Of a stretch of 22,671 nucleotides of DNA, positions 2,599 to 20,331 are shown in pieces. The notes beneath the pieces were generated by a model. That model saw nothing but the letters and a program-made list of their open reading frames with translations. It did not search any database and was not told where the DNA came from. Position 1 is the first letter of the stretch, and every line of letters starts with the position of its first letter. This stretch comes from Myxococcales bacterium (GTDB lineage Bacteria; Myxococcota; Polyangia; Polyangiales; Polyangiaceae): NCBI GenBank assembly GCA_003151595.1, contig PLXW01000093.1, positions 1-22,671 of the forward strand, given 5' to 3'. The position numbers were made by a program, and so were the translations under genes.

Positions 2599-2997
2599 AG
2601 ACCGCCGACAGCGTCAAGGTGACGACGTTCATCGAGGTCGATCCGGAAGACGCCTTCGACGTCTTCACGCGCGAGACGGATCTCTGGTGGCGGCGCGGCC
2701 CGCGCTACCGGACCGGTGGCGATCGTCGCGGCACGCTCCGCTTCGAGCCTGGCGCGGGCGGCCGCCTCGTCGAAGCGTTCGACGACGGTGAGGTGTTCGA
2801 GATCGGGCGCGTGCTGGTGTGGGGACGGCGGCACGCGCGTCACGCTCGAGCATCGCGGCTGGGACGCGCTGCGCGCAGACCACCCTGCGCGCCACGGTCT
2901 CACCGGCGCAGGCTTCACTGCCATGATCGGCCTGTGGTGGGGCGAGCTCGCCACGGCGCTGCGCATGCACGCCGCGAAGCGCCGCGCGACGCGATAA
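2595..2997 (+). pseudogene. SRPBCC/AHSA1-family protein, broken by an internal frameshifting deletion
   Basis: The gene starts at GTG 2595 (GTGA overlap with arsR). Its N-terminal half is normal for the family: KVTTFIEVDPEDAFDVFTRE (from residue 8), then LRFEPGAGGRLVEAF and FEIGRVLVWG. The frame then departs after about 2827. The expected C-terminal half, GGTRVTLEHRGWDAL through IGLWWGELATALRMHAAKR, continues in the +1 frame to TAA 2995-2997. The usual middle segment (roughly 25-30 residues covering 'EPP-RLVFEW...FAP...TEVEV.F.P') is absent, so this looks like a deletion of several tens of bases that also shifts the frame, not a single-base error. The original protein would have been a START-like ligand-binding partner of the ArsR system. 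Confidence 0.8.
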
Positions 2998-3008
2998 GCT
3001 CCGCGCCG

Positions 3009-4487
3009 ATGAAAACTCGGCAAGCGTTCGTCGGGCTCACGATCGCTGTCACCGGCGTCGCCTGTCACTCGTCGTCGTCGCCTTCGTCTCCGACCGCGCC
3101 GGTCGACTCCGGTCCTCCCGGCTCGTGCGCCGTCACCGCGCCCACGCTCGCGGACTGGCGCATCCACGCCGACGGCACGCTCTTCCGCGACGCGAGCGAT
3201 CGCGTCGTCTTCCTTCGCGGCGTGAACGCGGGCGGTCGCAGCAAGTTCGCGCCGTACGTCCCGTTCGACTATCCCGCCGGCGGCTACGCCACCGCGCTCT
3301 CCGCGTACATGGATCGCGCGAAGTCGTGGGGCATCGACGTCATGCGCGTCCCGTTCACGTGGGCCGCGCTGGAGCCTGTCGAAGGGCAGACCGACGACGC
3401 CTGGCTCGCCATGTACGACCAGTTCCTCGACGCCGCGTGGGCGCACGGCATCTACACGATCGTCGACTTCCACCAGGACGTGTACTCGGAGGTCTTCTGC
3501 GGCGACGGCTTCCCGGCATGGACCGTCCCCGACGCCGGCCCGCTTCACCACGACTGCCCGCAGTGGCAGCTCGAGTACTACCAAGACCCGGGCGTCACCG
3601 CGGCGTTCGACGTGTTCTGGGATGCGTCGTCACCGGTGCAAGTGGCGTACGGCAAGGCGTGGGACGGGATGGTCGCCCGCTACAAAGACAAGCCGGGCGT
3701 CCTCGGCTTCGAGCCGATCAACGAGCCGGGCTGGGGCACCGCCGACGAGAAGACGTTCGACGCGACGACGTTGACCGCCTTCTATTCGACGATGGTCGCG
3801 CGCATGCGCACTGCCGCTCCGTCATCGCTCGTCTTCGTCGACCCGACGGGCATCGACGGCACGCTCGTCTCGACGACGCTCGCCAAGCCGACGCCAGTCA
3901 CCGGCACCGGCGGCGCCGACGGCATCGTCTTCGCGCCGCACTACTACCCGCTCGGCAACGACACGATGGATCCCAACGCGGGGCTCCAGACGTGGACCAA
4001 GATCGGCGCGGCGTGGAACGTCCCCACGTTCCTCGGCGAGTTCGGCGCGAGCCACGACGACGTCAACGCGCTCCCGTACATGACCGACATTTTCACGGCC
4101 ATCGACGCCCTCGGATTGAGCGCCACCGAGTGGGAGTACAGCGTCGAGAGCGAAGAGTGGAACAGCGAGACGGACAGCCTCGTCGGCTCCGACGGCGGCG
4201 AGTACGAGGTCGTGCAAGCCGTGGCGCGCCCCTTCGCGCGCGCGGTCGGCGGCAGCGCGATCACGCAAGCATGGGACCCCACCGCCCAGACCTTCACGCT
4301 CGCGTACACACCGGCGAGCGGCGTCACGGAGGTATCGCTCCCGTCGCGCGCCTTCCCTTCGGGCTACGCCGTCACGATCACGGGCGCATGCTTCGACGCG
4401 AGCACGCCGGGTCGCATCCTCGTGCAACCCGACGCCTCGTCGAAGAGCGTCTCGCTGAAGATCACGCCGCGCGAAACGCGCGACTAG
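3009..4487 (+). CDS. Secreted glycoside hydrolase family 5 enzyme, endoglycosylceramidase-like
   Basis: The 492-residue product starts at ATG 3009. The N-terminus (MKTRQAFVGLTIAVTGVAC, Cys19) suggests a lipoprotein or secreted protein, followed by a Ser/Pro-rich linker. The TIM barrel covers about residues 45-390. FLRGVNAGG opens it, and VDFHQDVYS (152-160) is the motif typical of endoglycosylceramidases. Acid/base Glu239 lies in EPINEP and nucleophile Glu344 in FLGEFGA. A C-terminal beta-sandwich follows (about 400-492, with AITQAWDPTAQTFTLAYTP), as in the family. Endoglycosylceramidases release the intact glycan from glycosphingolipids; a GH5 relative acting on another lipid-linked or beta-linked sugar is the alternative. 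It would act outside the cell or on the cell surface. The open frame extends upstream to 2487, but that part overlaps the arsR and SRPBCC genes and is not coding. It meets the next gene tail to tail, 6 bp apart. Confidence 0.88.
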   Translation: MKTRQAFVGLTIAVTGVACHSSSSPSSPTAPVDSGPPGSCAVTAPTLADWRIHADGTLFRDASDRVVFLRGVNAGGRSKFAPYVPFDYPAGGYATALSAYMDRAKSWGIDVMRVPFTWAALEPVEGQTDDAWLAMYDQFLDAAWAHGIYTIVDFHQDVYSEVFCGDGFPAWTVPDAGPLHHDCPQWQLEYYQDPGVTAAFDVFWDASSPVQVAYGKAWDGMVARYKDKPGVLGFEPINEPGWGTADEKTFDATTLTAFYSTMVARMRTAAPSSLVFVDPTGIDGTLVSTTLAKPTPVTGTGGADGIVFAPHYYPLGNDTMDPNAGLQTWTKIGAAWNVPTFLGEFGASHDDVNALPYMTDIFTAIDALGLSATEWEYSVESEEWNSETDSLVGSDGGEYEVVQAVARPFARAVGGSAITQAWDPTAQTFTLAYTPASGVTEVSLPSRAFPSGYAVTITGACFDASTPGRILVQPDASSKSVSLKITPRETRD

Positions 4488-6446: not shown

Positions 6447-6470
6447 ATGAACGGGAGTCGCACGGCGTGA
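6447..6470 (+). other. Possible seven-codon leader ORF overlapping the adaptor start
   Basis: ATG 6447 begins MNGSRTA and stops at TGA 6468-6470, which overlaps the GTG start of the adaptor gene (GTGA, 6467-6470). A -10-like TAGACT lies at 6431-6436. The arrangement would couple leader and adaptor translation, but with seven codons it may be accidental. Confidence 0.25.
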
Positions 6471-7768
6471 AGAAGCGAATCGGATGGATCGTCACGCTGC
6501 TCGTGGTCGTGGCCGCAGGGGTCGTCTTCTGGCGTTACCGGTCCGCGCACCACGCGCCCGACGTCACGTACAAGACCACCGCCGCCTCACCGCACAAGAT
6601 CATCGGCAAGGTCACGGCCAGCGGCACGCTCTCGGCGATCGTGACCGTGCAGGTTGGCACGCAGGTGTCGGGACGTATCCAGAAGCTCCTCGCGGACTTC
6701 AACTCGCAGGTGAAGAAGGGGCAGCTCGTCGCCAAGATCGATCCGCAGCTCTTCGAAGCGGCGGTCGCGCAGTCGCAGGCGAACTACCTCCAGGCGCAGG
6801 CGAGCATCGTGAACTCCGAGGCGCAGGCGAAGAACGCCGACCTCCAGCTGGCGCGCACCAAGGCGCTTCACGAGCAGAACCTCGCCGCGCAGGCCGATCT
6901 CGACACCGCCACGGCGACGGCGGCGATGGCGCACGCCGGCATCGACATGCAGCGGGCGAACCTCGCGCAGGCGGCGGCGTCGCTGCATCAGGCGCAGGTG
7001 AACCTCTCCTACACCAGCATCCTCTCGCCGATCGACGGCGTCGTGATCTCGCGCAGCGTCGACGTCGGTCAGACCGTCGCCGCGTCGCTCTCGGCGCCGA
7101 CGCTGTTCACGATCGCGCAAGACCTCACGAAGATGCAGGTCGATTCCAACGTCGCCGAGGGGGACGTGGGCCGCTTGCAAGTGGCGATGGCGACGTACTT
7201 CACGGTCGACTCGTTCCCCGGCCAGAAGTTCCGCGGCAAGATTCGTGAGATCCGCAACTCGGCCACCACCGTGCAGAGCGTCGTCACGTACGACGCCGTC
7301 ATCGACGTCGACAACAGCGACTTGAAGCTCCGTCCCGGCATGACGGCGAACGTGACGGTCATCTACGCGCAGCGCGACAACGCCCTCTCGATCCCGAACG
7401 CCGCCTTTCGCTACCGCCCGCCGGCGTCCGCGACCCCGGCGCCGACGCCCGTGGTGAGCGCCACTGCGAGCGCCGTCGCGAGCGGTGCTTCGATCAGCGG
7501 ATCCGCCGCGCCCGCAGGGAGCGGTGGGCACGGCCATCGCTCGCGCCCGGCCACCGACGACGCCACCGATCCGAAGACCATCTGGGTGATGCGCGACGGC
7601 ACGCCGCAGCCGGTCTCGATCCACGCCGGCCTCAGCGACGGATCGTTCACCGAGGTGGTCGACGGCGATCTCAAAGAAGGCGATCTGGTGATCACCGAAG
7701 CCGTCACCACCGGTGACTCTGCACCTGCGCCGTCGGCCACGGGCCGCGGCATGCCGCGCGGCTTCTGA
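6467..7768 (+). CDS. MacA-like periplasmic adaptor subunit (HlyD/RND type)
   Basis: The 433-residue membrane-fusion protein starts at GTG 6467. One N-terminal helix (IGWIVTLLVVVAAGVVFW, residues 5-22) anchors it in the inner membrane. GKVTASGTLSAIVTVQVGTQVSGRIQ and VKKGQLVAKIDPQLFEAAVAQ form the first lipoyl half. A coiled-coil hairpin about 90 residues long follows (Ala/Gln-rich, LDTATATAAMAHAG), then the second lipoyl half (YTSILSPIDGVVISRSVDVGQTV) and a beta-barrel domain (LRPGMTANVTVIYAQ). An Ala/Ser/Pro-rich insert with GGHGHRSRP (about 328-365) interrupts the C-terminal part before the membrane-proximal domain (TIWVMRDGTPQPVSIHAGLSDG). It would link the ABC permease encoded downstream to an outer-membrane TolC channel, which is not in this window. 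Confidence 0.92.
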   Translation: MKKRIGWIVTLLVVVAAGVVFWRYRSAHHAPDVTYKTTAASPHKIIGKVTASGTLSAIVTVQVGTQVSGRIQKLLADFNSQVKKGQLVAKIDPQLFEAAVAQSQANYLQAQASIVNSEAQAKNADLQLARTKALHEQNLAAQADLDTATATAAMAHAGIDMQRANLAQAAASLHQAQVNLSYTSILSPIDGVVISRSVDVGQTVAASLSAPTLFTIAQDLTKMQVDSNVAEGDVGRLQVAMATYFTVDSFPGQKFRGKIREIRNSATTVQSVVTYDAVIDVDNSDLKLRPGMTANVTVIYAQRDNALSIPNAAFRYRPPASATPAPTPVVSATASAVASGASISGSAAPAGSGGHGHRSRPATDDATDPKTIWVMRDGTPQPVSIHAGLSDGSFTEVVDGDLKEGDLVITEAVTTGDSAPAPSATGRGMPRGF

Positions 7769-7780
7769 GCGAGGACGAGC

Positions 7781-8517
7781 ATGGCCGGACTCCTCGAGAT
7801 GGTCGACGTCACGAAGGTCTACGCGACCGGCGACGTCGAGCTGCGCGCGCTCGACGGCGTCTCGCTCTCCGTCGCCGAGCGCGAGTTCCTGGCCATCATG
7901 GGGACGTCGGGCTCGGGCAAGTCGACGTTGATGAACATCGTCGGCTGCCTCGATCGTCCGACGAGCGGCACGTACGAGCTCGCCGGTCGCCACGTCGGCT
8001 CCATGAGCAAGAACGAGCTCGCCGAGATCCGCGGCCAGTTCCTCGGCTTCGTGTTCCAGCAGTTCAACCTGCTCGCGCGCACCAGCGCGATCGAGAACGT
8101 CGAGCTCCCGCTCGTGTACACGGGGACGAAATCGCGCGAGCGAAGAGAGCGCGCCGTCGCCGCGCTCGAGCGCGTGGGTCTCGGCCATCGCCTCGAGCAC
8201 CACCCCAACCAGCTCTCGGGCGGCCAGCAGCAGCGCGTCGCCATCGCCCGCGCGATCGTCAACCGCCCCAAGTTGATCCTTGCCGACGAGCCCACCGGCG
8301 CGCTCGACTCGCGCACCAGCGTCGAAGTGATGGCGCTCTTCCAGGAGCTCTCCGAGACCGGCATCACCGTCGTCGTCGTCACGCACGATCCCGACATCGC
8401 GTCGTACGCCTCGCGCGTCGTCTCCATGAAAGACGGTCGCATTCAATCGGACGAGACGCAGGTCCCGCGCCGCGCGGTGCCGCCCCCCTCGAAGAAGCCC
8501 GGCGAGGCGGCGCCCAC

Positions 8518-8521
<4 letters not shown>
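7781..8521 (+). CDS. MacB/LolD-type ABC transporter ATP-binding protein
   Basis: The 246-residue ATPase starts at ATG 7781. All nucleotide-binding motifs are present: Walker A GTSGSGKST (41-49), Q-loop VFQQFN (Gln93), signature LSGGQQQR (145-152), Walker B LILADEP with catalytic Glu170, and H-loop His202. The sequence GTSGSGKSTLMNIVGCLDRPTSG is typical of the MacB/LolD/YknY clade. A Pro-rich tail of about 20 residues follows the core. It energises the permease encoded immediately downstream, whose GTG start overlaps this stop (GTGA, 8518-8521). Unlike E. coli MacB, the ATPase and permease are separate proteins, as in Bacillus YknY/YknZ. Confidence 0.95.
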
Positions 8522-9747
<1,226 letters not shown>

Positions 9748-9754
9748 CCGCGGG

Positions 9755-10486
9755 CTACTCGTCTTCCTTCAGATCGCGGATCGAGTTTCCGTCCAGCCCG
9801 GCGACGTCGAAGTGCCACCCGGCGCACGACGCTCCGGGGAGCGACTCGTGCAGCTTCGCGGCGAACTTGGCGAGCGCGTCGGGTCCGCTCGATCCCGAGT
9901 AGTCCATCGCCACCAGCGCGACCGAGTGATGGTCGCGCGTCGAGAACAACGACGCCGAGACCTCGAACGCATTCCGCTCCGGCATCCGCATCGGCGCCAT
10001 GCCCATGCCGCGCGATCGCCCGCTCCCGCGCATCCCGCCACTGCTCGGCGGGGCCATCGGCGCTTGCGAAGGCGCGGCGCCGCCGTCGACGCCGCCCGAT
10101 CGCGGACGCCCGGCGACGGTGAACACGAGCACTTCGTCGCCGCTCGCCGCGGGCGCCAGCTTGTTGAGGAGCCCCTCGGTCACGCCGTTGGCGCGCGCGT
10201 AGTCGTCGATCGCGCCGGCGAGCTCCTCGTTCTTCGCGACGAGGTCCTTGTCGTACGCGATGGGGCACGTCCCCGGTCCGAACGACGACGAGAGCTTCGC
10301 GCCGAGATCGTCCCACGCCTCGGCGTTCATTCGCCCATCGCGGAACACGCCGAGGATCGACACCTTCGGCGCGGTCTTCGGGAAGTCGGGCGCATAGCGC
10401 ACGCTCCACTGCGTCTCGTCTTCCGCGCAGGCGGCGGCGACGGCGATCAAGAGAAAGGAGACCCTTCGAAGCGCGACCAGTTTCAC
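9755..10486 (-). CDS. Unrecognised lipoprotein with Gly/Met/Pro-rich central insert
   Basis: The 243-residue product starts at GTG 10486, chosen because it opens a clean signal peptide (MKLVALRRVSFLLIAVAAAC, Cys20). The longer frame to 10555 adds an Arg-rich non-signal stretch. The first mature half contains PKVSILGVFRDGRMNAEAWDDL and a short Cys-containing segment (GPGTCPIAYDKDL). The middle is low complexity (SSGGMRGSGRSRGMGMAPMRMP), and the C-terminal half is FEVSASLFSTRDHHSVALVAMDYSG then SCAGWHFDVAGLDGNSIRDL. I do not recognise a family. It lies tail to tail with the permease gene (7 bp apart) and diverges from bacterioferritin. It is probably periplasmic or outer-membrane anchored. Confidence 0.75.
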   Translation of the reverse strand: MKLVALRRVSFLLIAVAAACAEDETQWSVRYAPDFPKTAPKVSILGVFRDGRMNAEAWDDLGAKLSSSFGPGTCPIAYDKDLVAKNEELAGAIDDYARANGVTEGLLNKLAPAASGDEVLVFTVAGRPRSGGVDGGAAPSQAPMAPPSSGGMRGSGRSRGMGMAPMRMPERNAFEVSASLFSTRDHHSVALVAMDYSGSSGPDALAKFAAKLHESLPGASCAGWHFDVAGLDGNSIRDLKEDE

Positions 10487-10584
10487 GCGCTGCTTATCCA
10501 ACGTCGCCGCGCGCACGTCGAGTGCTTCTCGCCGCGGCGCACGCGGGCTTGCCAAGCTCGGGCACCGGTGTTCCTCTCCCGCGC

Positions 10585-11055
10585 ATGAAGGGCAACCCGC
10601 GCGTCATCGACATGCTCAACGAAGTGCTCACCGGCGAGCTCACGGCCATCAACCAGTATTTTCTGCACGGCCGCATGTGCAAGAACTGGGGTTACGAGCA
10701 CCTCGGCGCGCACATCCTGAAGGAATCGATCGACGAGATGAAGCACGCCGACAAGCTCATCGAGCGCGTCCTCTTCCTCGACGGCCTCCCGAACCTTCAG
10801 CGCCTCGGCAAGCTCAACATCGGCACGACGGCGCCGGAGATCCTCCGCTCCGATCTGGCGCTCGAGATGACGGCGATCCCGATGCTCAACAACTACATCC
10901 AGGCCTGCCGCGACCTCGGCGACAACGGGACGGAGGACCTCTTCCGCAACATCCTGGTGAGCGAGGAAGAGCACGTCGACTGGCTCGAATCGCAGCTCGA
11001 GCTGATCAAACAGCTCGGGGAAGTGCAGTACCTGACGCAGCAGATTCGCTCGTAA
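10585..11055 (+). CDS. bfr: Bacterioferritin
   Basis: The 156-residue product starts at ATG 10585, giving the family's usual length and N-terminus (MKGNPRVIDMLNEVLTGELTA). The longer frame to 10522 only adds unlike sequence. The complete di-iron ferroxidase centre is present at the canonical positions: Glu18, Glu51, His54, Glu94, Glu127 and His130. The haem-ligating Met52 is also present (IDEMKHADKL), so it should bind haem between subunits. Twenty-four subunits would store iron as a mineral in the cytoplasm. Its reductive partner bfd is encoded 226 bp downstream, separated by a palindromic repeat and a Fur-type promoter, so the two are probably expressed under opposite iron conditions. Confidence 0.96.
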   Translation: MKGNPRVIDMLNEVLTGELTAINQYFLHGRMCKNWGYEHLGAHILKESIDEMKHADKLIERVLFLDGLPNLQRLGKLNIGTTAPEILRSDLALEMTAIPMLNNYIQACRDLGDNGTEDLFRNILVSEEEHVDWLESQLELIKQLGEVQYLTQQIRS

Positions 11056-11069
11056 GCGGCGGCCCTCGG

Positions 11070-11179
11070 CCCGCACGAGCCCTCACCGCCGGCCCCTCTC
11101 CCGCAAGGAGAGAGGGGAGGAGAGATCACGCGTTGGCTCCCCCTCTCCCCTTGCGGGAGAGGGGGCTGGGGGGTGAGGG
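11070..11179 (+). repeat. Palindromic intergenic repeat element, copy 1
   Basis: A ~100-bp element starts with CCCGCACGAGCCCTCAC and ends with CTGGGGGGTGAGGG. Inside, CCCCTCTCCCGCAAGG and a second block of the same type (CCTTGCGGGAGAGGG) form a long, GC-rich hairpin interrupted by a short AT-richer loop. A second, closely similar copy lies at 17457-17567 in the same orientation. It lies between bfr and the bfd promoter and could end the bfr transcript. Elements with CCCTCTCCCGCAAG cores are widespread short palindromic repeats in proteobacterial-type genomes. Confidence 0.85.
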
Positions 11180-11234
11180 TGCGCCGGGAATTCCGCGGGA
11201 TTCTTGCCTTTCCCGGAAATCGACGTCCTCGACC

Positions 11235-11264
11235 TTGAAGATGATAATGGCATTCAGTATCATC
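11235..11264 (+). promoter_or_regulatory. Fur-box promoter of bfd
   Basis: GATAATGGCATTCAGTATC (11243-11261) matches the 19-bp Fur consensus GATAATGATAATCATTATC at 15 of 19 positions. It is framed by the inverted repeat GATGATA (11240-11246) and TATCATC (11258-11264). A -35-like TTGAAG (11235-11240) and a -10-like TATCAT (11258-11263) are exactly 17 bp apart, with the box filling the spacer. The bfd start lies about 20 bp further on. Fur with iron would therefore block this promoter, and low iron would open it. Confidence 0.8.
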
Positions 11265-11281
11265 AAGGGCACGAGGTCGGG

Positions 11282-11524
11282 ATGTACGTCTGCGTTTGCA
11301 ATGGCGTCACGGATCGAGAAGTCAGCGAGGCCATCGAGGCCGGCGCGAAGACGCGCACCGCTGTGACCCGTGCATGCGGCGCCGGCGGCGACTGCGGCAG
11401 CTGCCACAGAGCGATCGACGAGATGCTCGGGTCGAAGTGCTCCCCTCTCGATAAGAGCGCCGACAAGAAGACTGCTGACGGGCTCATCGCGGCCCGCGAC
11501 CTCGTTCGCGAACGCGCCGCCTGA
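11282..11524 (+). CDS. bfd: Bacterioferritin-associated ferredoxin, [2Fe-2S]
   Basis: The 80-residue protein starts at ATG 11282, which places all four cluster ligands at their standard positions: Cys4 and Cys6 (MYVCVCNG), Cys38 and Cys41 (GDCGSCH). The longer frame to 11204 runs back through the Fur box and is not used. In characterised bacteria Bfd docks on bacterioferritin and passes electrons to its haem so that stored Fe3+ is released as Fe2+. The C-terminal 30 residues (SKCSPLDKSADKKTADGLI onward) are longer than in E. coli Bfd. Only 18 bp separate it from the cytochrome gene at 11543, so it may be the first gene of that operon. Confidence 0.95.
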   Translation: MYVCVCNGVTDREVSEAIEAGAKTRTAVTRACGAGGDCGSCHRAIDEMLGSKCSPLDKSADKKTADGLIAARDLVRERAA

Positions 11525-11542
11525 GTCGCGCGGAGGAACGCC

Positions 11543-12184
11543 ATGAAGGCTTTCGTGTCTTTGCTTATTGAAAACGGTAGTCAAGTTCACCCGTCCCACA
11601 TGGGCGCCCTCGCGCTGGCGAGCGCCCTCGCGCTCGCGCCGGTCGGGTGCAGCTCGGCCGAGCCCTCGGTGGGCGCCGACGCGGGCGGGACGTTCACCGC
11701 GTACCAAGCCGACTTTCAGACCTATCGCGCGTGGCAGTCGTTCACGTTCGAAGGCAAAGCGGTCCCCGATAGCCCGCACGCCGTGGCCGGTGTTCGCACC
11801 GAATACATCAATCACCTGCCGCCCAAGGGGGCGACGGCGTTCCCGGTGGGGACGATCATCGTCAAGGTTCTCGACGACGATCCCGCGCTGCAAACGTTCG
11901 CGATGGTGAAGGTCGGCGGTGGGTACAACCCCGACGGGGCCAAGGATTGGGAGTGGTACGAGCTTCTCAACGACGCCGATGAGAGCGTGACCATTCGCTG
12001 GAACGGCGCCATCGCGCCGCAGGGCGACCCCTACGCGAGCTCGCCCGTCAGTTGCAACGATTGCCACTCCCAGGCCGCGAGCACCGACTACGTGCAGTCG
12101 GGGGCGCTCAATCTCGCGCGGCTCAACTCGGGCGCCCCCTTCGACGGCGGCGTCCTCGACGCGCTGGACGGAGCGTCGGAGTGA
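11543..12184 (+). CDS. P460-like c-type cytochrome lipoprotein
   Basis: The 213-residue product starts at ATG 11543, with GCGGAGGA about 7 nt upstream; ATG 11600 would give a cleaner signal (MGALALASALALAPVGC). The lipobox is PVGC (Cys36). The mature domain has YRAWQSFTFEGKAVPDSPHA, RTEYINHLPPKGATAFPVGT, VKVGGGYNPDGAKDWEWYEL and a single haem site CNDCH (Cys171, Cys174, His175) near the C-terminus. Both the haem position and the 'R-x-YIN…G-x-FPVGT' pattern fit the cytochrome P460 family. P460 proteins oxidise hydroxylamine or related nitrogen species, with a Lys cross-linked haem, but many homologues have no known role. The end overlaps the next gene (GTGA). A small lipid-anchored electron carrier is the alternative. 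Confidence 0.85.
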   Translation: MKAFVSLLIENGSQVHPSHMGALALASALALAPVGCSSAEPSVGADAGGTFTAYQADFQTYRAWQSFTFEGKAVPDSPHAVAGVRTEYINHLPPKGATAFPVGTIIVKVLDDDPALQTFAMVKVGGGYNPDGAKDWEWYELLNDADESVTIRWNGAIAPQGDPYASSPVSCNDCHSQAASTDYVQSGALNLARLNSGAPFDGGVLDALDGASE

Positions 12185-12984
12185 AGGCGCTCCTCGGGGT
12201 CGGCGCGGTCGCTGCCGTGATGCTCACCTCGTTTGCTGCGCAGGCGAACCCGCGCCCGCTGCCGTTCACCTACAACTACGAGACGCTCGGCGAGGGGGAA
12301 GGGGAGATCGAGCAGTACGTCGACATGACCCCCGTGCGCGCGCACGACGCCATCGGCAAGGAGGTCTACTACGCGGCGATGCAGTACCAGACCGAGTTCG
12401 AATACGGCATCACCGATCGCCTCGAGCTCGGGCTCTACGTCGCGCTGCAGCCGAAGCCCGATTACGCCGACGCGGCGACGCTGACCGAGGGGACCGGATT
12501 CAAGGAACGGCTCCGGTATCGGTTTGCCGAGGAAGGGGATTGGCCGGTCGACGTCGCGCTGTACGGCGAGCTCGTCGAGTACGACGTCGAGTTCGAGGTC
12601 GAAGCGAAGATCATCTTGCAGAAGCGGTTCGGCAAGCTGCGGATCGCGGCGAACGCCTGGGCCGAGCGCGAGTGGTACTACGGGCTCAATCAGCGCGATT
12701 GGGTTCTCAACCCGACCATCGGCGCCACGTATCAAGTCACCCCCGCGTTTCACGCCGGCGTCGAATACTGGATGCGCGCGGAGTTTCCCGATCCGTCACC
12801 GCAGGTGCGCACGTTCAATCTCGGGCCGCACCAATTCGTCGGGCCGGCGCTGATGGTGAACTTCGGAAAGATCTGGTGGTCGACAGGTGTGTACGTCCGC
12901 CTCGACGACATGGGGCACACGCCGCAGCCGCTCGACAACTTCGGGCCGATCTGGGTACGGACCGTCATCGGCGTGAGCTTGTAG
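12181..12984 (+). CDS. Outer-membrane beta-barrel-like protein of the cytochrome operon
   Basis: The 267-residue product starts at GTG 12181, in a GTGA overlap with the cytochrome gene. A classic signal peptide is present (MKALLGVGAVAAVMLTSFAAQA). The rest is amphipathic strand after strand: GEGEIEQYVDMTPVRA, TEFEYGITDRLELGLYVALQ, GKLRIAANAWAEREWYYG, GATYQVTPAFHAGVEYWM and a last strand VRTVIGVSL with a terminal hydrophobic residue. It probably forms a barrel of about 12-14 strands in the outer membrane. Placed between a P460-like cytochrome and a di-haem enzyme, it may serve as a conduit or docking barrel for extracellular redox chemistry. This role is inferred from position only. It has the same general build as the barrel-like protein at 432-1220. 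Confidence 0.85.
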   Translation: MKALLGVGAVAAVMLTSFAAQANPRPLPFTYNYETLGEGEGEIEQYVDMTPVRAHDAIGKEVYYAAMQYQTEFEYGITDRLELGLYVALQPKPDYADAATLTEGTGFKERLRYRFAEEGDWPVDVALYGELVEYDVEFEVEAKIILQKRFGKLRIAANAWAEREWYYGLNQRDWVLNPTIGATYQVTPAFHAGVEYWMRAEFPDPSPQVRTFNLGPHQFVGPALMVNFGKIWWSTGVYVRLDDMGHTPQPLDNFGPIWVRTVIGVSL

Positions 12985-12986
12985 TC

Positions 12987-15356
12987 ATGCGCCGCGGCGC
13001 TCTCGCAGGTTGGGGATGTGCGCTCGGTCTCTTGGTCGCGTGCTCGTCGAAGCCACAGGCGACTCCTCCGGCCGTGGCATCGAGCGACGCGGGTGTGCCA
13101 TCTCGGCCGATCGCGATCACGTCGCGTGCGACGCGCTTCATGGTCGCGGACCACATGCGCGCGGCGCTCGAGATGCAGCTGTCGGGAGAGCCCTTCGCCA
13201 CGGCCATGGGGCGCGACCTCGGGGGGTACAGCCGCGACTGGACTCCGCCGAACGTCTATTTCGATCCGTCGCCCACGTCGACCGGGCCGTGGATCGATCT
13301 GGCCGGGTTTTCGAGCGGGATCGAGTCGTACGAGTACTCGAAGCAGCCGATGAACACCCTGGCGTTCGAGTCGGGCGCGGGGGTGTCGCTGGCGTACGGA
13401 TCGCTCATCAATCCGGCGGGGCTGAACGGGAGTCTGGCCTGTGCGGGGCTGCGCGATCGCGTGCAGCACCTGGGCGCCGCGAGCAACGGAACCTCGCGGT
13501 TCATCCACGCCGAGAAGTCCGAGACGAACCCGCTCGGCTGGCCGGGGATCTGGCCGACCGTGGAGCCGTTCATCTCGTTCGATCCGACGATCGCGGCGAC
13601 GAGCTCGGTGTCGGAGGCGTGCTCGATCACCTCGGACGACGATCCCGGGTCTTCGGGATCGATGATGAGCGACGACTACGAGTGCGACGCGACCTCTCTC
13701 CACTTGCCGGATCGCGCGACTCAAATCGACAGCGCGATCTCGCCCGGCAGCAGCGGGTGGGCGGGGTGGAAGGCCGCGTTGTGGATCCTCAACTACCTGC
13801 AGGTGATGCACGACTCGAACGAGAGGGCGATCACGAAGGTCGCAGACTCCGACCTGGCCCGCGTCGGCGCGTCGGGGAACGCAGTCGTGAGCACCGACGT
13901 GGGAGACAGTCCCGCTCCGGTGCCCGGGATCTATCTCGGGTCGAGTGACATCGAGGGGTTTCAGGCGGGGATGATGATCACCGCGCTCGACAACGAAGCG
14001 GCCGATTGGCTCTTCGCGCACACGACGACCGACGGCGCGACGCTCGGCGGATTCGCCGATACGAAGAGCGCTCTCGCGTACGACACGAGCGCGACGTTGC
14101 GCTGGTTCCCGGCGGAGATCGCGGTGACGGAGATCGCGGACGCCAACTGCGCGTTTCCGCGGCCGAGCGGGTACGCGATTCGATCGAGCGCGAGTCATCT
14201 CATCGATCTCGCCGGGCTGCTCGGGACGTACGCCAGTCTTTATGCGCTCACCGATCGGGCGAACGTCGCCACGGGTGGAGCGCAGCCGGCCGAAGCGTAT
14301 TTCGACGGCGATCCGTTCGCGGTCGACGACCAGATCGCCGACGGCGAAGACACGTTGCACGATCGATCGCTGGCGATGATTCGCGTCGCCCTGGTGAACG
14401 TGCTGCGCATGCACGTCGATCCGGCGTCGGGGATTCCGGTCGACGACGCGACGTTCGCCGGGAGCGCGCCGTCGCGCGGGACCACGCTCTCGGCTTCGAG
14501 CGCCGCATACGCGCTCCTCGCGCTTCGCACGACGCGGCGATCGCTCTCCGACTTGCTCACGCTCTACTCGAACACGACGCCCGACACGGCGACGCTGGCC
14601 ACGCCGATCGACGCGCCGCCGATCGCGCCGTCGGTCACGGTGACGAGCGAGCTCAATGCGCTGGTCGAAGCGATCTCGGGTCTCTTCTATGACCACCTCA
14701 CCGATGCGAGCGGGCGCGCGTGGGCGGGTTGGGACGTCTCGAAGAAGGCGATTACCAGCAGCGAGGATCTCCTCGATTCGCATACGGCCGCCGTGCGCGC
14801 GCTGCTCCTCGCGTACCTGGCCTCGGGGAACGTGAAGTACCGCGATCGCGCGCTCGCCGTGTTCGAGCGGGCGGACGCCGTGTTCTGGGATGCGTCGGCG
14901 CGGATCTATCGGGCGGTGGCGGGCGAACCGTCGGACACGGTGACGTACTCGCCGGTTCGCTTCGCGCTCGTGCAGGCGATGCTGCGCGATACGTACGAGC
15001 TCATCGCGGCGAACGACGGGCACGCGGCCTTGGCGGCGAAGCTCCTCGATCGCGTGGGGCGCATGAACAAGCTCGTCTTGAACGGGTGGGACGATCGCAA
15101 CGGTGATCAGAAGGTCGACTACCCCGCGGAGTGCATGCTCTCGGCCGACGGAACGCCGCGCGGCGGGTTGCAGATGGGCGAGCGGACGCTCACCGGCGAG
15201 TCGGGGAGCAACGTCGATACGTTCGACGCCGGCGTCGCGCGAAAGCCCGTGGTCGATCGCGACTCGGATTGCGTGCCCGAGATCTCGGCGGCGCAGCTAC
15301 CGGCGGCGCTCGCCGATTCGGTGACGTTCCAGATCGCGAAGGCGGTGAGCAAGTGA
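12987..15356 (+). CDS. Large secreted lipoprotein of the cytochrome operon, possibly helical-toroid fold
   Basis: The 789-residue product starts at ATG 12987, 3 nt after the barrel stop. The signal peptide ends in LGLLVACSS (lipid Cys19). I do not recognise a named family. The N-terminal half contains YSRDWTPPNVYFDPSPTST and a Cys pair (EACSITSDDDPG … DDYECDATS). From about residue 240 helical pairs appear: WAGWKAALWILNYLQVMHD, SHLIDLAGLLGTYASLYAL, SAAYALLALRTTRRSLSDLL, HTAAVRALLLAYLASGNVKY and RDRALAVFERADAVFW. This spacing suggests an (alpha/alpha) toroid like six-hairpin glycosidases or terpene-cyclase-like folds. The tail has VDRDSDCVPEIS. There is no CxxCH haem site. Its stop overlaps the di-haem gene, so it may be that enzyme's partner or protein substrate. 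Confidence 0.8.
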   Translation: MRRGALAGWGCALGLLVACSSKPQATPPAVASSDAGVPSRPIAITSRATRFMVADHMRAALEMQLSGEPFATAMGRDLGGYSRDWTPPNVYFDPSPTSTGPWIDLAGFSSGIESYEYSKQPMNTLAFESGAGVSLAYGSLINPAGLNGSLACAGLRDRVQHLGAASNGTSRFIHAEKSETNPLGWPGIWPTVEPFISFDPTIAATSSVSEACSITSDDDPGSSGSMMSDDYECDATSLHLPDRATQIDSAISPGSSGWAGWKAALWILNYLQVMHDSNERAITKVADSDLARVGASGNAVVSTDVGDSPAPVPGIYLGSSDIEGFQAGMMITALDNEAADWLFAHTTTDGATLGGFADTKSALAYDTSATLRWFPAEIAVTEIADANCAFPRPSGYAIRSSASHLIDLAGLLGTYASLYALTDRANVATGGAQPAEAYFDGDPFAVDDQIADGEDTLHDRSLAMIRVALVNVLRMHVDPASGIPVDDATFAGSAPSRGTTLSASSAAYALLALRTTRRSLSDLLTLYSNTTPDTATLATPIDAPPIAPSVTVTSELNALVEAISGLFYDHLTDASGRAWAGWDVSKKAITSSEDLLDSHTAAVRALLLAYLASGNVKYRDRALAVFERADAVFWDASARIYRAVAGEPSDTVTYSPVRFALVQAMLRDTYELIAANDGHAALAAKLLDRVGRMNKLVLNGWDDRNGDQKVDYPAECMLSADGTPRGGLQMGERTLTGESGSNVDTFDAGVARKPVVDRDSDCVPEISAAQLPAALADSVTFQIAKAVSK

Positions 15357-17347
15357 GGGCGCGCGCTTGCACCTGGACGATCGCGCTGGCGATCGGGGCC
15401 TCGGCGGCGACCGACGCGTGCTCGTCGTCGCAAGGCGCGACCGGGAGCGTGTCGGAGCACTCGTCGAGCATCGCCGTGAGCTTCGACGCGAAGACCGTGT
15501 ACGTCGTGAACGCCGACGCCGACTCGGTGTCGTTCCTCGACGCGCGCGGGAAGAAGCTGACGCGCGAAGTGCTCCTGGCGAAGACGGCGCCAGCGGTCGA
15601 TGCGGCGGGGCGCTTCGAGCCCGCGGTGAGCCCGCGCGCGCTGGCGCTGGGGCCGAACGGGAAGACGCTGTACGTGACGGGCGAGCGATCGGGCGAGGTG
15701 TTCGCGATCGACGCCGCGAGCGGCGCGGTGCTTCACCGGGCGAAGGTGTGCGCCGAGCCGGTGGGCGTGCTGGCGTCGCCCGATGGCGCGTCGGTGTTCG
15801 TGGCCTGCTCGCAGGACGACATGGTCGCGGAGCTCGACGCGACGTCGCTGGCGAAGAAGACGACGACGGCCACGGATCGAAAACCGTGGGGGCTCGGGTT
15901 CAGCGCTGACCACGCGCAGATCTACGTGACCCATCTGCTGGGCCCGGGCGTGACGGTGCTCAGCGCGTCGTCGCTGGCGATCGCGGATCGATGGGCCATG
16001 CCCGACGGACCGCCGCAGAGCGATCCGGGCGACACGTCGGGTGCCGAGGACGCGCTCCTTCCGCACGGGCCTTCGCGCGGGATCTACGACGTGCTCGCGC
16101 GGCCTGGCTCACGCGAAGTGTGGGTCGCGCACATGATGCTGGGGATCGACACGCCGCAGCCGGCGCTCGTCTTCAACATGACGGCGTTCTCGGCGCTGTC
16201 GCTGATCGACGATCAGGGGAAATCGCTGGCGCGCCTCAGCGTGACCGCGGTCCCGGGTGACGGCGGCGCGTTCGGCGACGTGACCTCGGGGCCGCGCGCG
16301 ATGGCGTTCTCCGCGGACGGGAAGCTCGCGTTCGTGGTCGATACGGCGAGCGAAGACGTGCTGGTCGTCGATGCCGACGCGCGCTTCGAGTCGTCGCTGG
16401 TGCGTCCGCTGCCGGGGCATCAGCCCGAGGGGATCGCGGTGGCGAGCGACGGGCATCTCTATGTCGACGAGCGCAACACGAGCGACGTCGCGGTGCTCGA
16501 CTTCACGTCGGGAGACGCGGGGCCGACGTTGAGCGCGGAGAGCGGGACGATCGCGCGGCTCGCGCACGCCGATCCGATGCCGAGCGCGATGCGCCTCGGG
16601 CAGCATCTCTTCAACTCCGCCGACAGCGACGAGCTCCCGCTCACGCAAGACCACTGGGTCGCGTGCACGACCTGTCACGTCGAAGCGCGGAGCGACGCCG
16701 TCACGTGGCTCTTCGCGCAAGGCCCGCGCGACACGCCCTCGAACGCCGGCGGCATGTTGCAGACCGGGTTTCTCTTTCGCCAGGCCGCGCGCAACAAGGT
16801 GCAGGACTACTGGGAGACGATCGACATCGAACAAGGGGGACACTTCCCCGACCCCACGAGCGCCGCGTCGGTGCCGGCGCTCGCTTCGGATCTCGACGCG
16901 CTCGAGACGTACGTCGACTACGCCATTCCGCTTCCGGTTCCGCCGAGCACGCTCGACCCGGCGGAGGTCGCCAATGGGAGCGCGCTCTTCCAGAAGCTCG
17001 GTTGCAGTGGCTGTCACTCCGGGCCGGCGTTCACGGATTCGGGTGAGGGGAATCCCACGCTCGATCTGACCGTGATGCCGAAGATGCACGACGTGGGGAC
17101 GTGGGTGAGCACCGGGGCCTACCCCGACGTGGCCGTGCCCGATCAGATCGGCGACCCGCGGCCCGCGGGTATGTTCGACACGCCGAGCCTCCGCGGCATC
17201 TCGGACAGCGCTCCCTACTTGCACGACGGACGCGCGGCGACGCTCTTCGACGTCTTCACGATGGCGCCGAAGATGGTGGGGCCAGAAGCCGCGGCGCTCT
17301 CGCAGAGCGACAAGGCTGCGCTCGTCGCGTACCTGCGATCGCTCTGA
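15353..17347 (+). CDS. YVTN beta-propeller fused to a di-haem cytochrome c peroxidase/MauG-like domain
   Basis: The 664-residue protein starts at GTG 15353 (GTGA overlap). Its N-terminal signal region ends near ATDACSSS, with only a weak lipobox. Residues 45-400 form a propeller built of repeats such as DAKTVYVVNADADSVSFLD, NGKTLYVTGERSGEVFAID, DGASVFVACSQDDMVAELD and DGKLAFVVDTASEDVLVVD. The C-terminal third has two c-haem sites, CTTCH (438-442) and CSGCH (551-555), and the family signature FDTPSLRGISDSAPYLHDGR. It belongs to the cytochrome c peroxidase/MauG/MbnH superfamily, which reduces peroxide or oxidises a partner protein. Propeller-peroxidase fusions are known in myxobacteria. It is the last gene of the module, followed by tandem repeats and the second palindromic element. 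It is periplasmic or surface located. Confidence 0.92.
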   Translation: MRARACTWTIALAIGASAATDACSSSQGATGSVSEHSSSIAVSFDAKTVYVVNADADSVSFLDARGKKLTREVLLAKTAPAVDAAGRFEPAVSPRALALGPNGKTLYVTGERSGEVFAIDAASGAVLHRAKVCAEPVGVLASPDGASVFVACSQDDMVAELDATSLAKKTTTATDRKPWGLGFSADHAQIYVTHLLGPGVTVLSASSLAIADRWAMPDGPPQSDPGDTSGAEDALLPHGPSRGIYDVLARPGSREVWVAHMMLGIDTPQPALVFNMTAFSALSLIDDQGKSLARLSVTAVPGDGGAFGDVTSGPRAMAFSADGKLAFVVDTASEDVLVVDADARFESSLVRPLPGHQPEGIAVASDGHLYVDERNTSDVAVLDFTSGDAGPTLSAESGTIARLAHADPMPSAMRLGQHLFNSADSDELPLTQDHWVACTTCHVEARSDAVTWLFAQGPRDTPSNAGGMLQTGFLFRQAARNKVQDYWETIDIEQGGHFPDPTSAASVPALASDLDALETYVDYAIPLPVPPSTLDPAEVANGSALFQKLGCSGCHSGPAFTDSGEGNPTLDLTVMPKMHDVGTWVSTGAYPDVAVPDQIGDPRPAGMFDTPSLRGISDSAPYLHDGRAATLFDVFTMAPKMVGPEAAALSQSDKAALVAYLRSL

Positions 17348-17354
17348 CAGCGAT

Positions 17355-17447
17355 TTTTGGCCGGCGACTTTTGGCCGGCGACTCTCGGCCGGCGACTCTC
17401 GGCCGGCGACTTTTGGCCGGCGACTTTTGGCCGGCGACTCTCGGCCC
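17355..17447 (+). repeat. 14-bp tandem repeat, six and a half copies in two variants
   Basis: Units 1, 2, 5 and 6 read TTTTGGCCGGCGAC. Units 3 and 4 read TCTCGGCCGGCGAC. A seventh partial unit begins TCTCGGCC at 17439. The period is exactly 14, not a multiple of three, so this is not a coding repeat. Each unit carries the palindrome GCCGGC. It begins 8 bp after the stop of the di-haem gene. Confidence 0.9.
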
Positions 17448-17456
17448 AGGCCCATT

Positions 17457-17567
17457 CCCGCACGAGCCCTCACCCCCGGCCCCTCTCCCGCAAGGGGAGA
17501 GGGGAGGAGAGCGAGCACAGCGTGCTCCCCCTCTCCCCTCGCGGGAGAGAGGGCTGGGGGGTGAGGG
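17457..17567 (+). repeat. Palindromic intergenic repeat element, copy 2
   Basis: This is the same element as at 11070-11179, in the same orientation, starting CCCGCACGAGCCCTCAC and ending GGGGGGTGAGGG. The arms CCCCTCTCCCGCAAGG and CCTCGCGGGAGAGAGG pair, and the loop here is CGAGCACAGCGTG. A strong hairpin after the cytochrome operon may stabilise or end its transcript. Confidence 0.85.
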
Positions 17568-17650
17568 ACGCGCGTAGAAGAGCGATCACCTACATGGACC
17601 GATCGCGGGATCAGCGGTATCGTTCTGCGCGCGCGATTCACCAAAGCCCT

Positions 17651-17668
17651 TGATTTAGGGGCAAATCA
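17651..17668. promoter_or_regulatory. Perfect 6-bp inverted repeat, possible operator
   Basis: TGATTT (17651-17656) and AAATCA (17663-17668) are separated by AGGGGC, in the spacer before the von Willebrand lipoprotein gene. It is AT-rich in a GC-rich genome, which is unusual. No promoter hexamers are confidently placed next to it. Confidence 0.3.
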
Positions 17669-17853
17669 CGACGCGGCTGGACAGGGCAGCGCACGATCGC
17701 CGAGATCGCACAACGTGACTGTTTCTTTCTGGCTCTCTTGGAATCGAGCTTTCCTCCTTCACGAAGAATGATTTCTGGATGACGGTTCCACGGTGGGCCG
17801 GCCATCGGCTGATAAGACTCGGACTGTCGCTGCCCCTACCTCGGGAGATCGCA

Positions 17854-20331
17854 ATGCATTCACGCTTGCTCCGCTGCACCCTGGCGAGCCTCACGCTCGT
17901 CGCATCGACCGGCGCTCTGGCATCCGGATGCCTCAGTCGTCCGGTGGTGCCCGGTGAGCCGGTCACGAAGACGAACTTCACGACGAACATCCAGGAGCAG
18001 GCGGTCGACAAGCTCGACATCTTGTTCTCGATCGACAACTCGGCGTCGATGGGCGACAAGCAGCTGTTTCTCGAGGGCGCGATCCCGGACTTGATCAACC
18101 GGCTCGTGTCGCCGTACTGCCTCGACGCCACGGGCGCCGTGCAGGGGCCATCGACGAACATCCCCACTCCCGGGACATGCCCGAACGGCCAGACCGTCGA
18201 GTTCCCGCCGGTGCACGACATGCACATCGGCATCGTGAGCTCGTCGCTCGGGCCGCGCCTCGGCGACGTGCCGAAGGGGGTCGCCGGAGCCGCGTGCCTC
18301 GCGACCGGCACCGTGACGATCGGCACGACGCAGTACCCCGAGCACAACGACGACGCCGCGCACTTGCTCAATCGCTCGACGCTCCCCGGCGCGGCGACAC
18401 CTGCCGAGACGGCGCTCGCCGATGCCGCGGGCGGATTCCTCGCCTGGTTCCCGACCGTGGACGCGAACAAGGGGAAGCCCGGCCCCGTCGGCGGCAGCGC
18501 GGCGATCGTCGGACCCGACTCGACGCAGCTCGTGAGCGACTTCCAGGATCTCGTCATCGGCGTTCACCAGTACGGGTGCGGCATCGAGTCGCAGCTCGAG
18601 AACTGGTACCGCTTCCTGATTCAGCCCGACCCGTACGCGACGCTCGGAACGCACAACAACGCGCAGAACCAGCCGATCGCGAACTGGGTTGGCGTCGACA
18701 CGGTGATCCTCCAGCAGCGAAAGGACTTCCTCCGTCCCGACTCGCTCGTCGCCATCATCGTCCTCACCGACGAGAACGACTCCGAGATCGACGTGCGCTC
18801 GCTCGCCGGGCAGGGCTACCTGTTCATGAGCACGGCGTTTCCGCCTCCGCACGGGACGGCAGCCTGCGACTCGAATCCCGGCGATTCCGCCTGCCAGTCG
18901 TGCGGCAGCGCGACGGCCAGCGACCCGAGCTGCAAGCTCGCGAACAATCCGTACACGGCCTCGACGGACTGGGGCTTCGACTTGAACCTTCGCCACGTGC
19001 ACATGAAGGCGAAGTACGGCCTCGATCCGCAGTTCCCGGTCGAGCGCTACACGACCGGCCTCTCGTCGCTCACGGTCCCGGATCGGACCGGTGAGTACCC
19101 GAGCGACGCGAAGGGGAACGTTGCGTCGAGCTACCAGGGGCAGAACGACTGCTCGAATCCGCTCTTCGCCGGTGTGCTCCCCGATCCGTCGAAGCTGTCG
19201 CCGGGGATCGCGACCGCGACCACGATCGCACCCGCCGACGCGACGCTGCTCTGCAAGCTCCCCGCGGGGCAGCGCGCGAAGAACCTCGTCTTCTACGCCA
19301 TCATCGGCGGCGTGCCGCACGAGCTGCTGCACTTCGATCCGAACAGCCCGACCGCCAGTCAGCTGTCGGACGCCGACTGGGTGAAGATCCTCGGCAACGA
19401 TCCGGAGAAGTACGACTACGGCGGGATCGACCCGCACATGATCGAGTCGTACGCGCCGCGCGCCGGGCTCTCGGCTCCGGGCTCTGCGAATACGGCGGAT
19501 CCGATCAACGGGCGCGAGTGGATCACGAACCAGGGGCCGCACACCGACCTCAACGTCGACCGCGAGTACGCCTGCATCTTCCCGCTGGACCAGCCGCGTG
19601 ACTGCACCAACCCCGACAACAAGCTGGCGTGCGACTGCACGGCCGCGCCGGGCGTGCTCACTCACGACCAGACGTCGCCGGTGTGCGATCCGACGACGGT
19701 CACGCAGCAGGACTACGCGAAGGCGTACCCCACGATCCGTGAGCTGCTCGTCGCGCACAAGATGGGCGATCAGGGGATCGCTTCGTCGATCTGCCCGATT
19801 CATGTCACGGACAACGCGGCCAAGACGGATCCGCTGTACGGGTATCGTCCGGCCGTCGCGAGCATCGTGAACCGTTTGAAGAACGCGCTCACGAACCAGT
19901 GCTTGCCGCAGAAGCTCACGCCGGATTCGACGGGCGCAGTGCCTTGTTTGATCCTGGCGACGCTGGCGCTGCCGGGGGACGAGTCGGCGTGCACTGCGCC
20001 GGGCGTGAGCGGACTGACGGTTCCCGATGCGACGGTGCTCGCACAGTTCAGGAAGACCGAAGAAGCCGACTACCAGGCGAACGGAGGGGCCGCCGCAGGG
20101 CTTCCCGATCCGAACACGCTGCCGGTTTGCCAGGTGACGCAGATCCTCGAGCAGGGCGGGGCATCCTGCAAGGCGTCAACGACCCAATCTGGCTGGTGCT
20201 ACGTCGAAGGCGCTGCGGCCGGGACGTGCTCGCAAGCCATCCTGTTCACGACGGGAGCGCCCCCGACCGGATCGAAGATCAGCCTTCAGTGCATCGAAGA
20301 GTCCACCGCGGGTGGCGACGGCGGGCAGTGA
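17854..20331 (+). CDS. Large lipoprotein with von Willebrand factor A-like domain
   Basis: The 825-residue product starts at ATG 17854, with CGGGAG about 7 nt upstream; the frame open to 17779 is ignored because the signal peptide begins here. The signal MHSRLLRCTLASLTLVASTG runs to lipobox LASGC (Cys26). The MIDAS-type metal site is DILFSIDNSASMG (Asp61, Ser63, Ser65), with a later acidic loop IIVLTDENDSEID (Asp306). The domain is interrupted by long inserts, and the C-terminal half has several Cys pairs (CDCTAAPGVLTHDQTSPVC, TSGWCYVEG-like segments) and an Asp/Gly tail. Proteins opening with 'DILF-x-IDNS-x-SM' are a common surface lipoprotein type in Polyangia, presumably adhesion or ligand binding. 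No partner gene is adjacent. It is followed by a strong terminator. Confidence 0.88.
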   Translation: MHSRLLRCTLASLTLVASTGALASGCLSRPVVPGEPVTKTNFTTNIQEQAVDKLDILFSIDNSASMGDKQLFLEGAIPDLINRLVSPYCLDATGAVQGPSTNIPTPGTCPNGQTVEFPPVHDMHIGIVSSSLGPRLGDVPKGVAGAACLATGTVTIGTTQYPEHNDDAAHLLNRSTLPGAATPAETALADAAGGFLAWFPTVDANKGKPGPVGGSAAIVGPDSTQLVSDFQDLVIGVHQYGCGIESQLENWYRFLIQPDPYATLGTHNNAQNQPIANWVGVDTVILQQRKDFLRPDSLVAIIVLTDENDSEIDVRSLAGQGYLFMSTAFPPPHGTAACDSNPGDSACQSCGSATASDPSCKLANNPYTASTDWGFDLNLRHVHMKAKYGLDPQFPVERYTTGLSSLTVPDRTGEYPSDAKGNVASSYQGQNDCSNPLFAGVLPDPSKLSPGIATATTIAPADATLLCKLPAGQRAKNLVFYAIIGGVPHELLHFDPNSPTASQLSDADWVKILGNDPEKYDYGGIDPHMIESYAPRAGLSAPGSANTADPINGREWITNQGPHTDLNVDREYACIFPLDQPRDCTNPDNKLACDCTAAPGVLTHDQTSPVCDPTTVTQQDYAKAYPTIRELLVAHKMGDQGIASSICPIHVTDNAAKTDPLYGYRPAVASIVNRLKNALTNQCLPQKLTPDSTGAVPCLILATLALPGDESACTAPGVSGLTVPDATVLAQFRKTEEADYQANGGAAAGLPDPNTLPVCQVTQILEQGGASCKASTTQSGWCYVEGAAAGTCSQAILFTTGAPPTGSKISLQCIEESTAGGDGGQ

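Follow-up and report, generated by a model that had tools for sequence, protein, structure and literature searches.

The closest described counterparts of the locus reported here are operons in which an exported protein is accompanied by a di-haem protein of the DUF1111 family, which we take to be today's DHOR. The available text of PMC3143127 describes Fur-regulated imelysin-like proteins with a DUF1111 di-haem partner, and operons of this kind (Pseudomonas aeruginosa PA4370-PA4373; EfeUOB) combine low-iron control with an exported protein and a DUF1111/DHOR-type partner. In the MbnH/MbnP and MauG systems a di-haem enzyme of the cytochrome c peroxidase (CCP) superfamily stands beside a haem-free exported protein, and in the hydrazine synthase beta-gamma fusion a propeller is joined to a CCP-like di-haem domain. 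Here we describe a run of five genes that shares these features, found in a 22,671-nt stretch of DNA (contig PLXW01000093.1 of assembly GCA_003151595.1; hereafter the window, meaning the whole stretch) from a Myxococcales bacterium; the named relatives nearest to the window's proteins are Polyangiaceae. The run encodes a bacterioferritin-associated ferredoxin (bfd), a P460-type haem c lipoprotein, an outer-membrane beta-barrel, a 789-residue lipoprotein without haem motif (LP789) and a propeller/di-haem fusion (PropDH). We see about an even chance that the run is an operon for iron starvation in which the exported proteins act in the manner of a Fur-regulated imelysin/DHOR (EfeO/EfeB-type) iron module, an unnamed pair of a lipoprotein and a di-haem protein standing where imelysin and DHOR would be.

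All five genes are close-packed on the + strand, with junctions of 18, -4, 2 and -4 nt. The run is headed by bfd (11282..11524; Fer2_BFD PF04324, 57.9 bits vs. a cut-off of 26), followed after 18 nt by the P460-type gene (11543..12184), whose stop overlaps the GTG start of the barrel gene (12181..12984) by 4 nt (GTGA). The LP789 gene (12987..15356) begins after a gap of 2 nt and overlaps the PropDH gene (15353..17347) by 4 nt, again GTGA. The gene run, its coordinates, the overlaps and the bfd-P460 spacing agree with an initial annotation made from the sequence alone, which had put the barrel-LP789 gap at 3 nt. The upstream neighbour on the same strand is bfr, encoding bacterioferritin (10585..11055, ATG at 10585; TIGR00754 with 214.5 bits vs. 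a cut-off of 125.55, Ferritin with 133.4 bits), and a palindromic repeat and a Fur-type box lie between bfr and the run. Linkage of the genes in the run is well supported.

Fur-type boxes were scored against what we presume to be the Fur-box consensus. The box ahead of bfd, GATAATGGCATTCAGTATC (11243..11261, + strand), is an imperfect palindrome matching this consensus at 15/19 positions forward and 14/19 reversed. One-strand scans of 200 windows simulated with a first-order Markov model gave 14/19 as the best score (once), and none reached 15. In the region 11000-17800 only two promoter-like sites were detected (shuffles average 0.3), with hexamers at 11220-11248 and 11235-11263, and both overlap the Fur-type box. 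On the basis of sequence, the arrangement is that expected of a Fur-controlled bfd, as initially annotated, and no promoter-like site was seen downstream of bfd to 17800. The same region held no terminator-like site (shuffles average 2.8), in line with the claim that none separates bfd from the cytochrome gene. The missing internal terminators are weak evidence, because the scan finds none after PropDH either. A possible second Fur-like site, GAAAACGGTAGTCAAGTTC (11570..11588, + strand), lies inside the signal-peptide codons of the P460-type gene. By the consensus alone it reaches 12/19, which is the chance level, and it was rejected as a Fur box on that measure; it is kept as a candidate because it matches the box preceding bfd in a distant relative's locus, L009, at 16/19, the sole window site above 13. 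An Rfam scan of 10400-18000 matched no structural RNA. Regulation of the run by Fur and iron is a prediction supported by sequence, with the box lying over the promoter-like sites.

Relatives were searched for in 377 Myxococcota genomes, which include many metagenome-assembled genomes and may be incomplete. Two candidates per genome were scored for LP789, three for PropDH, up to six for the barrel and up to nine for P460, so that misses are possible, and genes in the relatives' loci were called with a simple script based on open reading frames and third-position GC content (GC3). LP789 was found in 13/377 genomes and PropDH in 8/377, all eight among the 13 (hypergeometric 1.4e-13); in seven of the eight the two genes share a contig and are no more than 2.4 kb apart, and in G369 their contigs differ. 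With a more sensitive search, 14 of 18 LP789 genomes matched PropDH, and full-length PropDH was present in 13 after G003, a partial match on a six-haem propeller protein, was dropped. Of 31 LP789 loci (L001-L025 and L050-L055, some genomes giving two), 15 have PropDH as a direct neighbour or at a distance of one to two genes, and in one record the numbers of PropDH and LP789 differ by five (ACHREM_14275, ACHREM_14280). When contigs were compared for the best 120 of 921 LP789 relatives, the best 120 of 849 PropDH relatives and all 47 P460 relatives, equally long contigs being taken as the same, LP789 and PropDH had 27 contigs in common (0.32 by chance; 119 listed each, with the window's own excluded), PropDH and P460 had seven, and LP789 and P460 had four. 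In L016, L017, L021 and L025 the LP789 genes are divergent, and the propeller protein encoded nearby is another one, with six CxxCH motifs; the two such propeller proteins that were scanned, from L016 and L017, have C554/C7-like haem domains. A polytopic GT-C mannosyltransferase-like (TMEM260-like) protein is encoded at LP789/PropDH in L007, L009, L010, L014, L015 and L025.

The distant relative L009 repeats the set, with LP789, P460, barrel and PropDH 42.5-44.3% identical to those of the window. Its bfd overlaps the P460 gene by 4 nt (ATGA) behind Fur-like boxes at 2054 and 2161, and next on the same strand come genes for the barrel, for two small cytochromes and for an FAD protein, then those for LP789, a glycosyltransferase-like membrane protein and, last, PropDH; a second LP789 gene and bfr diverge, and the spacer that parts them carries a 15/19 box. 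In L017, bfr, a 17/19 box and bfd are located within ~2 kb of LP789, and in L050 a 15/19 box precedes LP789. The 14/19 box of L014 lies over the start of a gene for a barrel-like protein that leads into LP789 and PropDH; it is contained in ATGAAATTGGTTTTCAATATC, which translates as MKLVFNI. Altogether, boxes of at least 14/19 occur in 5/31 LP789 loci (shuffles 0.50). A pattern for the peptide that would result from a box over a start codon, MK[VLMIAT][VITA][FIV][NITKS], is matched in the first 20 residues of 12/120 LP789, 1/47 P460 and 0/120 PropDH relatives. The pattern is loose, with MK plus hydrophobic residues being common in signal peptides, and the matches are no more than suggestive.

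The P460-type gene leads to a second group of loci. P460 occurs in 27/377 genomes, and in 20 of the 30 P460 loci an imelysin gene is directly upstream; 16 of these also have a DHOR di-haem gene before imelysin. A barrel gene is located downstream of P460 in 11/30, two of them of the window's barrel type. The imelysin and porin queries were taken from the P460 loci themselves; Pfam named four of the imelysins and two DHOR pieces, and the L095 imelysin was identified by reading. Eleven imelysin-P460 clusters, chosen by us from the 20 and taken with more flank (L128 is truncated at the end of its contig; L126 is without DHOR match), were examined for Fur boxes. A box of at least 14/19 was found in six of them (shuffles mean 0.10 of 11), and in L129, L130 and L131 it ends 25, 13 and 17 nt, respectively, before the first possible DHOR start. 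Our literature search found no paper pairing P460 with imelysin. P460 and LP789 share 4/377 genomes (0.93 expected, p 0.0096); outside the 377 set, L009 and L011 each hold both in one locus, and one record numbers them ten apart (VGI39_43670, VGI39_43680). The window has the appearance of an imelysin/DHOR-type iron cluster in which LP789 and PropDH replace imelysin and DHOR. Homologues of the run's genes do occur together elsewhere, as the strong LP789-PropDH linkage and the L009 set demonstrate. Its four-gene module did not hold as one fixed unit: LP789-PropDH is the conserved core, and P460 stands more often behind imelysin. A uniform module was rejected, as in the genomes covered by the search P460 and LP789-PropDH are mostly apart and the window's barrel type adjoins P460 in only 2/30 barrel loci.

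PropDH consists of an N-terminal YVTN-type propeller (Lactonase PF10282, 42.1 bits, above the cut-off) and a C-terminal di-haem domain of the DHOR/CCP superfamily (DHOR PF06537, 25.0 bits vs. a gathering score of 22.0). Its CxxCH motifs at residues 438 and 551 (16664-16678 and 17003-17017) are the two expected of a two-haem CCP-superfamily protein. LP789, with at least 921 homologues, gave no Pfam and no NCBIfam match at E<=0.1, so that it is not assigned to imelysin (PF09375), and a sequence search against the PDB returned no credible relative (best E 0.15). The LP789 model is an (alpha/alpha)6 toroid, and the protein carries many invariant residues, with many invariant Trp and Tyr among them. 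Imelysin is absent among the 50 Foldseek and 50 VIA matches listed for LP789, which is no evidence of absence.

The cytochrome is named P460-type, and not a filed member of the family, because its PF16694 score (20.6 bits) is under the gathering cut-off of 27; PF16694 is annotated on 20 of its 47 listed relatives. It resembles cytochromes P460 and c'-beta in having its CxxCH (CNDCH, residues 171-175, 12053-12067) near the C-terminus, and it has the P460 cross-linking Lys position. This residue, K108 (11864-11866), is invariant in 23/23 relatives and is aligned, in a weak profile match (6hiu, E 0.008), with Lys78 of Methylococcus P460, the cross-linking Lys of that protein (PMC11928373, Table 2). 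The best-scoring PDB chain for the profile was 7ead, a c'-beta without the cross-linking Lys (E 7.5e-4); the single-sequence search against the PDB was too weak, and the profile search was slightly better. Asp102 of 6hiu, the distal carboxylate, falls beside a variable column of the P460 alignment in the same weak profile match, and this carboxylate is not clearly kept in the window protein. The window protein differs from the described cytochromes also in being a lipoprotein and in its occurrence in iron-type gene clusters. Its signal peptide (11543-11602) opens with an odd LLxENGSQ, common to P0121-P0123, of which P0121 is the window's own.

For the barrel, taken as 12-stranded, the AlphaFold2 model (predicted local distance difference test, pLDDT, 93.0; predicted template modelling score, pTM, 0.85; 13 strands listed) has a closed beta-barrel fold, and its best Foldseek matches are outer-membrane channels, namely a COG4313 channel, FapF and NanC. 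The protein described at first as barrel-like is thus a channel-type outer-membrane barrel by its modelled fold. The family is present in 51/377 Myxococcota genomes. In L076-L078, L082, L086, L087, L090 and L091 a barrel relative has behind it, at no more than ~150 nt, the gene of a haem c lipoprotein of ~100 residues, which suggests that these form a barrel-cytochrome pair of their own.

Gene order and linkage, boxes and folds were all obtained by computation; the working of the system, from sequence and relatives, is proposed as follows. Low iron would free Fur from 11243-11261 and allow one transcript from bfd to PropDH. Bfd, a protein that mobilises bacterioferritin iron, would help to draw iron from the neighbouring bacterioferritin. 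As for substrate and chemistry, we infer that LP789, outside the cytoplasm, may bind or process a substrate, for which an iron species or an iron-binding ligand would be the simplest choice, and that PropDH may oxidise or reduce LP789 or the substrate bound to it. The P460-type cytochrome could take part as an additional partner that does redox work or binds a gas, and the barrel could be the passage through the outer membrane. The likeness to the Fur-regulated imelysin operons extends to P460, which is included in the imelysin/DHOR clusters of Myxococcota. The differences are that no imelysin (PF09375) was found among the window proteins scanned, LP789 being of another family with a toroid fold, that the di-haem domain is joined to a propeller and that bfd heads the run. 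No paper joining di-heme, beta-propeller and bacterioferritin-associated ferredoxin was found in the literature search.

Several observations weigh against an iron-starvation operon of imelysin/DHOR type. LP789 is unlike imelysin in Pfam, so that its standing in place of imelysin rests on gene position and the shared di-haem class. P460 and LP789 are on separate contigs in all four of the 377 genomes that have both. Twelve of the 31 LP789 loci are without PropDH and without the six-haem propeller protein; eight of these (L001, L003, L004, L018, L020, L023, L024 and L051) are fragmentary or lie close to the end of a contig, and L008, L011, L019 and L055 are not. As many as 26/31 LP789 loci are without a box of 14/19 or better, which means that Fur control is not general or that the motif differs; the box of L015 is ~8.6 kb away, and no box was found before LP789 in Minicystis rosea (L013), a carrier of the LP789-PropDH pair. 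The two imelysin-P460 clusters with the window's barrel type, L125 and L126, reach only 13/19. Finally, the toroid fold is found also in sugar epimerases and glycosidases, and LP789 has a membrane glycosyltransferase-like neighbour in 6/31 loci, pointing to glycan chemistry. These last two observations make a glycan-active LP789 the strongest rival, which we nevertheless consider fairly unlikely. LP789 would here be a surface carbohydrate-active enzyme of epimerase- or glycosidase-like type, PropDH would oxidise the released sugar or relay electrons, and the iron link would be indirect, e.g. through an iron-binding glycan. LP789 shares the (alpha/alpha)6 fold with the N-acylglucosamine 2-epimerase, GH105 and GH76 toroids but has no Pfam match and is about twice as long. 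A shared fold proves no function, the fold-matched proteins listed being 5-15% identical, and the one glycosyltransferase-like protein scanned is below its Pfam cut-off (19.5 vs. 24.2). Fur-type boxes and bfd/bfr neighbours would also stay unexplained.

The initial annotation had proposed that a MauG/MbnH-like enzyme modifies the neighbouring lipoprotein, i.e. that PropDH oxidises Trp/Tyr of LP789. Strict pairing with a haem-free lipoprotein rich in invariant Trp and Tyr fits this, and all 15 PropDH in set A5 match the MbnH model TIGR04039, weakly; the window's PropDH scores 47.3 bits vs. a cut-off of 362.85 (and 21.5 vs. 443.85 for TIGR03791), and LP789 is without the NCBIfam match that such a partner might show. 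The axial position, located by fixed offset, is occupied by Tyr in the MbnH of the alignment and by Met in peroxidase 1iqc; the corresponding sixth-ligand Tyr of MauG we take to be Tyr294. In the 17 PropDH that have the two haem motifs (the truncated L005, L011 and the four six-haem loci were left out) this position carries A, M, T, L, K, H or R, with Tyr in 0/17 and the Met of bacterial cytochrome c peroxidases in 1/17, the window's PropDH not being the one. MbnH/MauG membership of PropDH was rejected on the curated score and the axial residue. The strict pairing leaves room for a relation of catalyst and partner, and because of it an MbnH-like reading keeps some probability, though the defining residue is missing; we count it as unlikely. 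A further alternative is nitrogen-oxide handling, in which P460 oxidises hydroxylamine or binds nitric oxide (NO) and PropDH, akin to hydrazine synthase beta-gamma, helps to guard the iron-starved cell. The cross-link Lys position is kept throughout the P460 relatives, the best profile match of the C-terminal part of PropDH, and its nearest in the PDB, is hydrazine synthase gamma (5c2v_C, E 1.4e-21), and all 15 PropDH in A5 match the beta-gamma fusion model NF052342. However, PropDH is far below the cut-off of that model (57.3 bits vs. 1250), no alpha subunit was seen among the seven window proteins scanned, the partner is LP789, and the distal carboxylate tied to hydroxylamine oxidation is the one that is not clearly conserved; we regard this explanation as very improbable. 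It is quite improbable, too, that the position of bfd is a mere coincidence and that the four genes behind it are expressed without regard to iron. The many boxless LP789 loci would agree with this, another promoter could lie in the AT-rich stretch within the start of P460, and a terminator scan that misses an end after PropDH does not exclude one after bfd. Yet bfd overlaps P460 behind Fur-like boxes in L009, bfd/bfr are again beside LP789 in L009 and L017, other P460 clusters carry Fur boxes in the proportion given above, and downstream of bfd the promoter scan was empty.

Two ~105-bp palindromic repeats bracket the bfd-PropDH run, a left copy at 11070..11179 (repeats D2/D4, inverted repeat I2) and a right copy after PropDH at 17457..17567 (repeats D2/D4, inverted repeat I3), the latter being a possible transcript end. 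The copies are 95-96% alike in two blocks. Four copies of their 16-base core occur in the window (one of them has 2 mismatches), and none of the 135 loci retrieved contains it exactly. Right after PropDH, at 17350-17439, a 14-bp unit forms a tandem array of 6.4 copies with 93% matches, and further downstream, at 17779-20331, an 850-residue protein without Pfam family is encoded, a 43% identical counterpart of which precedes LP789 by ~5 kb in L018 (2574-5075). Elsewhere the window holds a GH5 family glycoside hydrolase with a GH5 C-terminal domain (2787-4484) and a MacA/MacB-type efflux set, judged by reading only (6467-9747).

Taken as a whole, the initial interpretation of the locus as an iron-responsive redox system is partly supported: the single Fur-box promoter region and the L009 parallel stand behind it, the fixed module has fallen away, and the MauG/MbnH idea is weakened. 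With somewhat less than even confidence, we tentatively see in LP789-PropDH an undescribed surface redox system of iron-starved Myxococcota that would have arisen in parallel to imelysin-DHOR (EfeO-EfeB), in which the toroid lipoprotein would correspond to imelysin and the fusion to DHOR, with P460 and the barrel as a shared plug-in. The analysis places P460-type cytochromes, which have been investigated for their chemistry with hydroxylamine and NO, in imelysin/DHOR clusters, several of them headed by a Fur box. A family of at least 921 members with no Pfam or NCBIfam name and with a strict di-haem partner thereby gains a testable setting, namely redox work at the cell surface in low iron.

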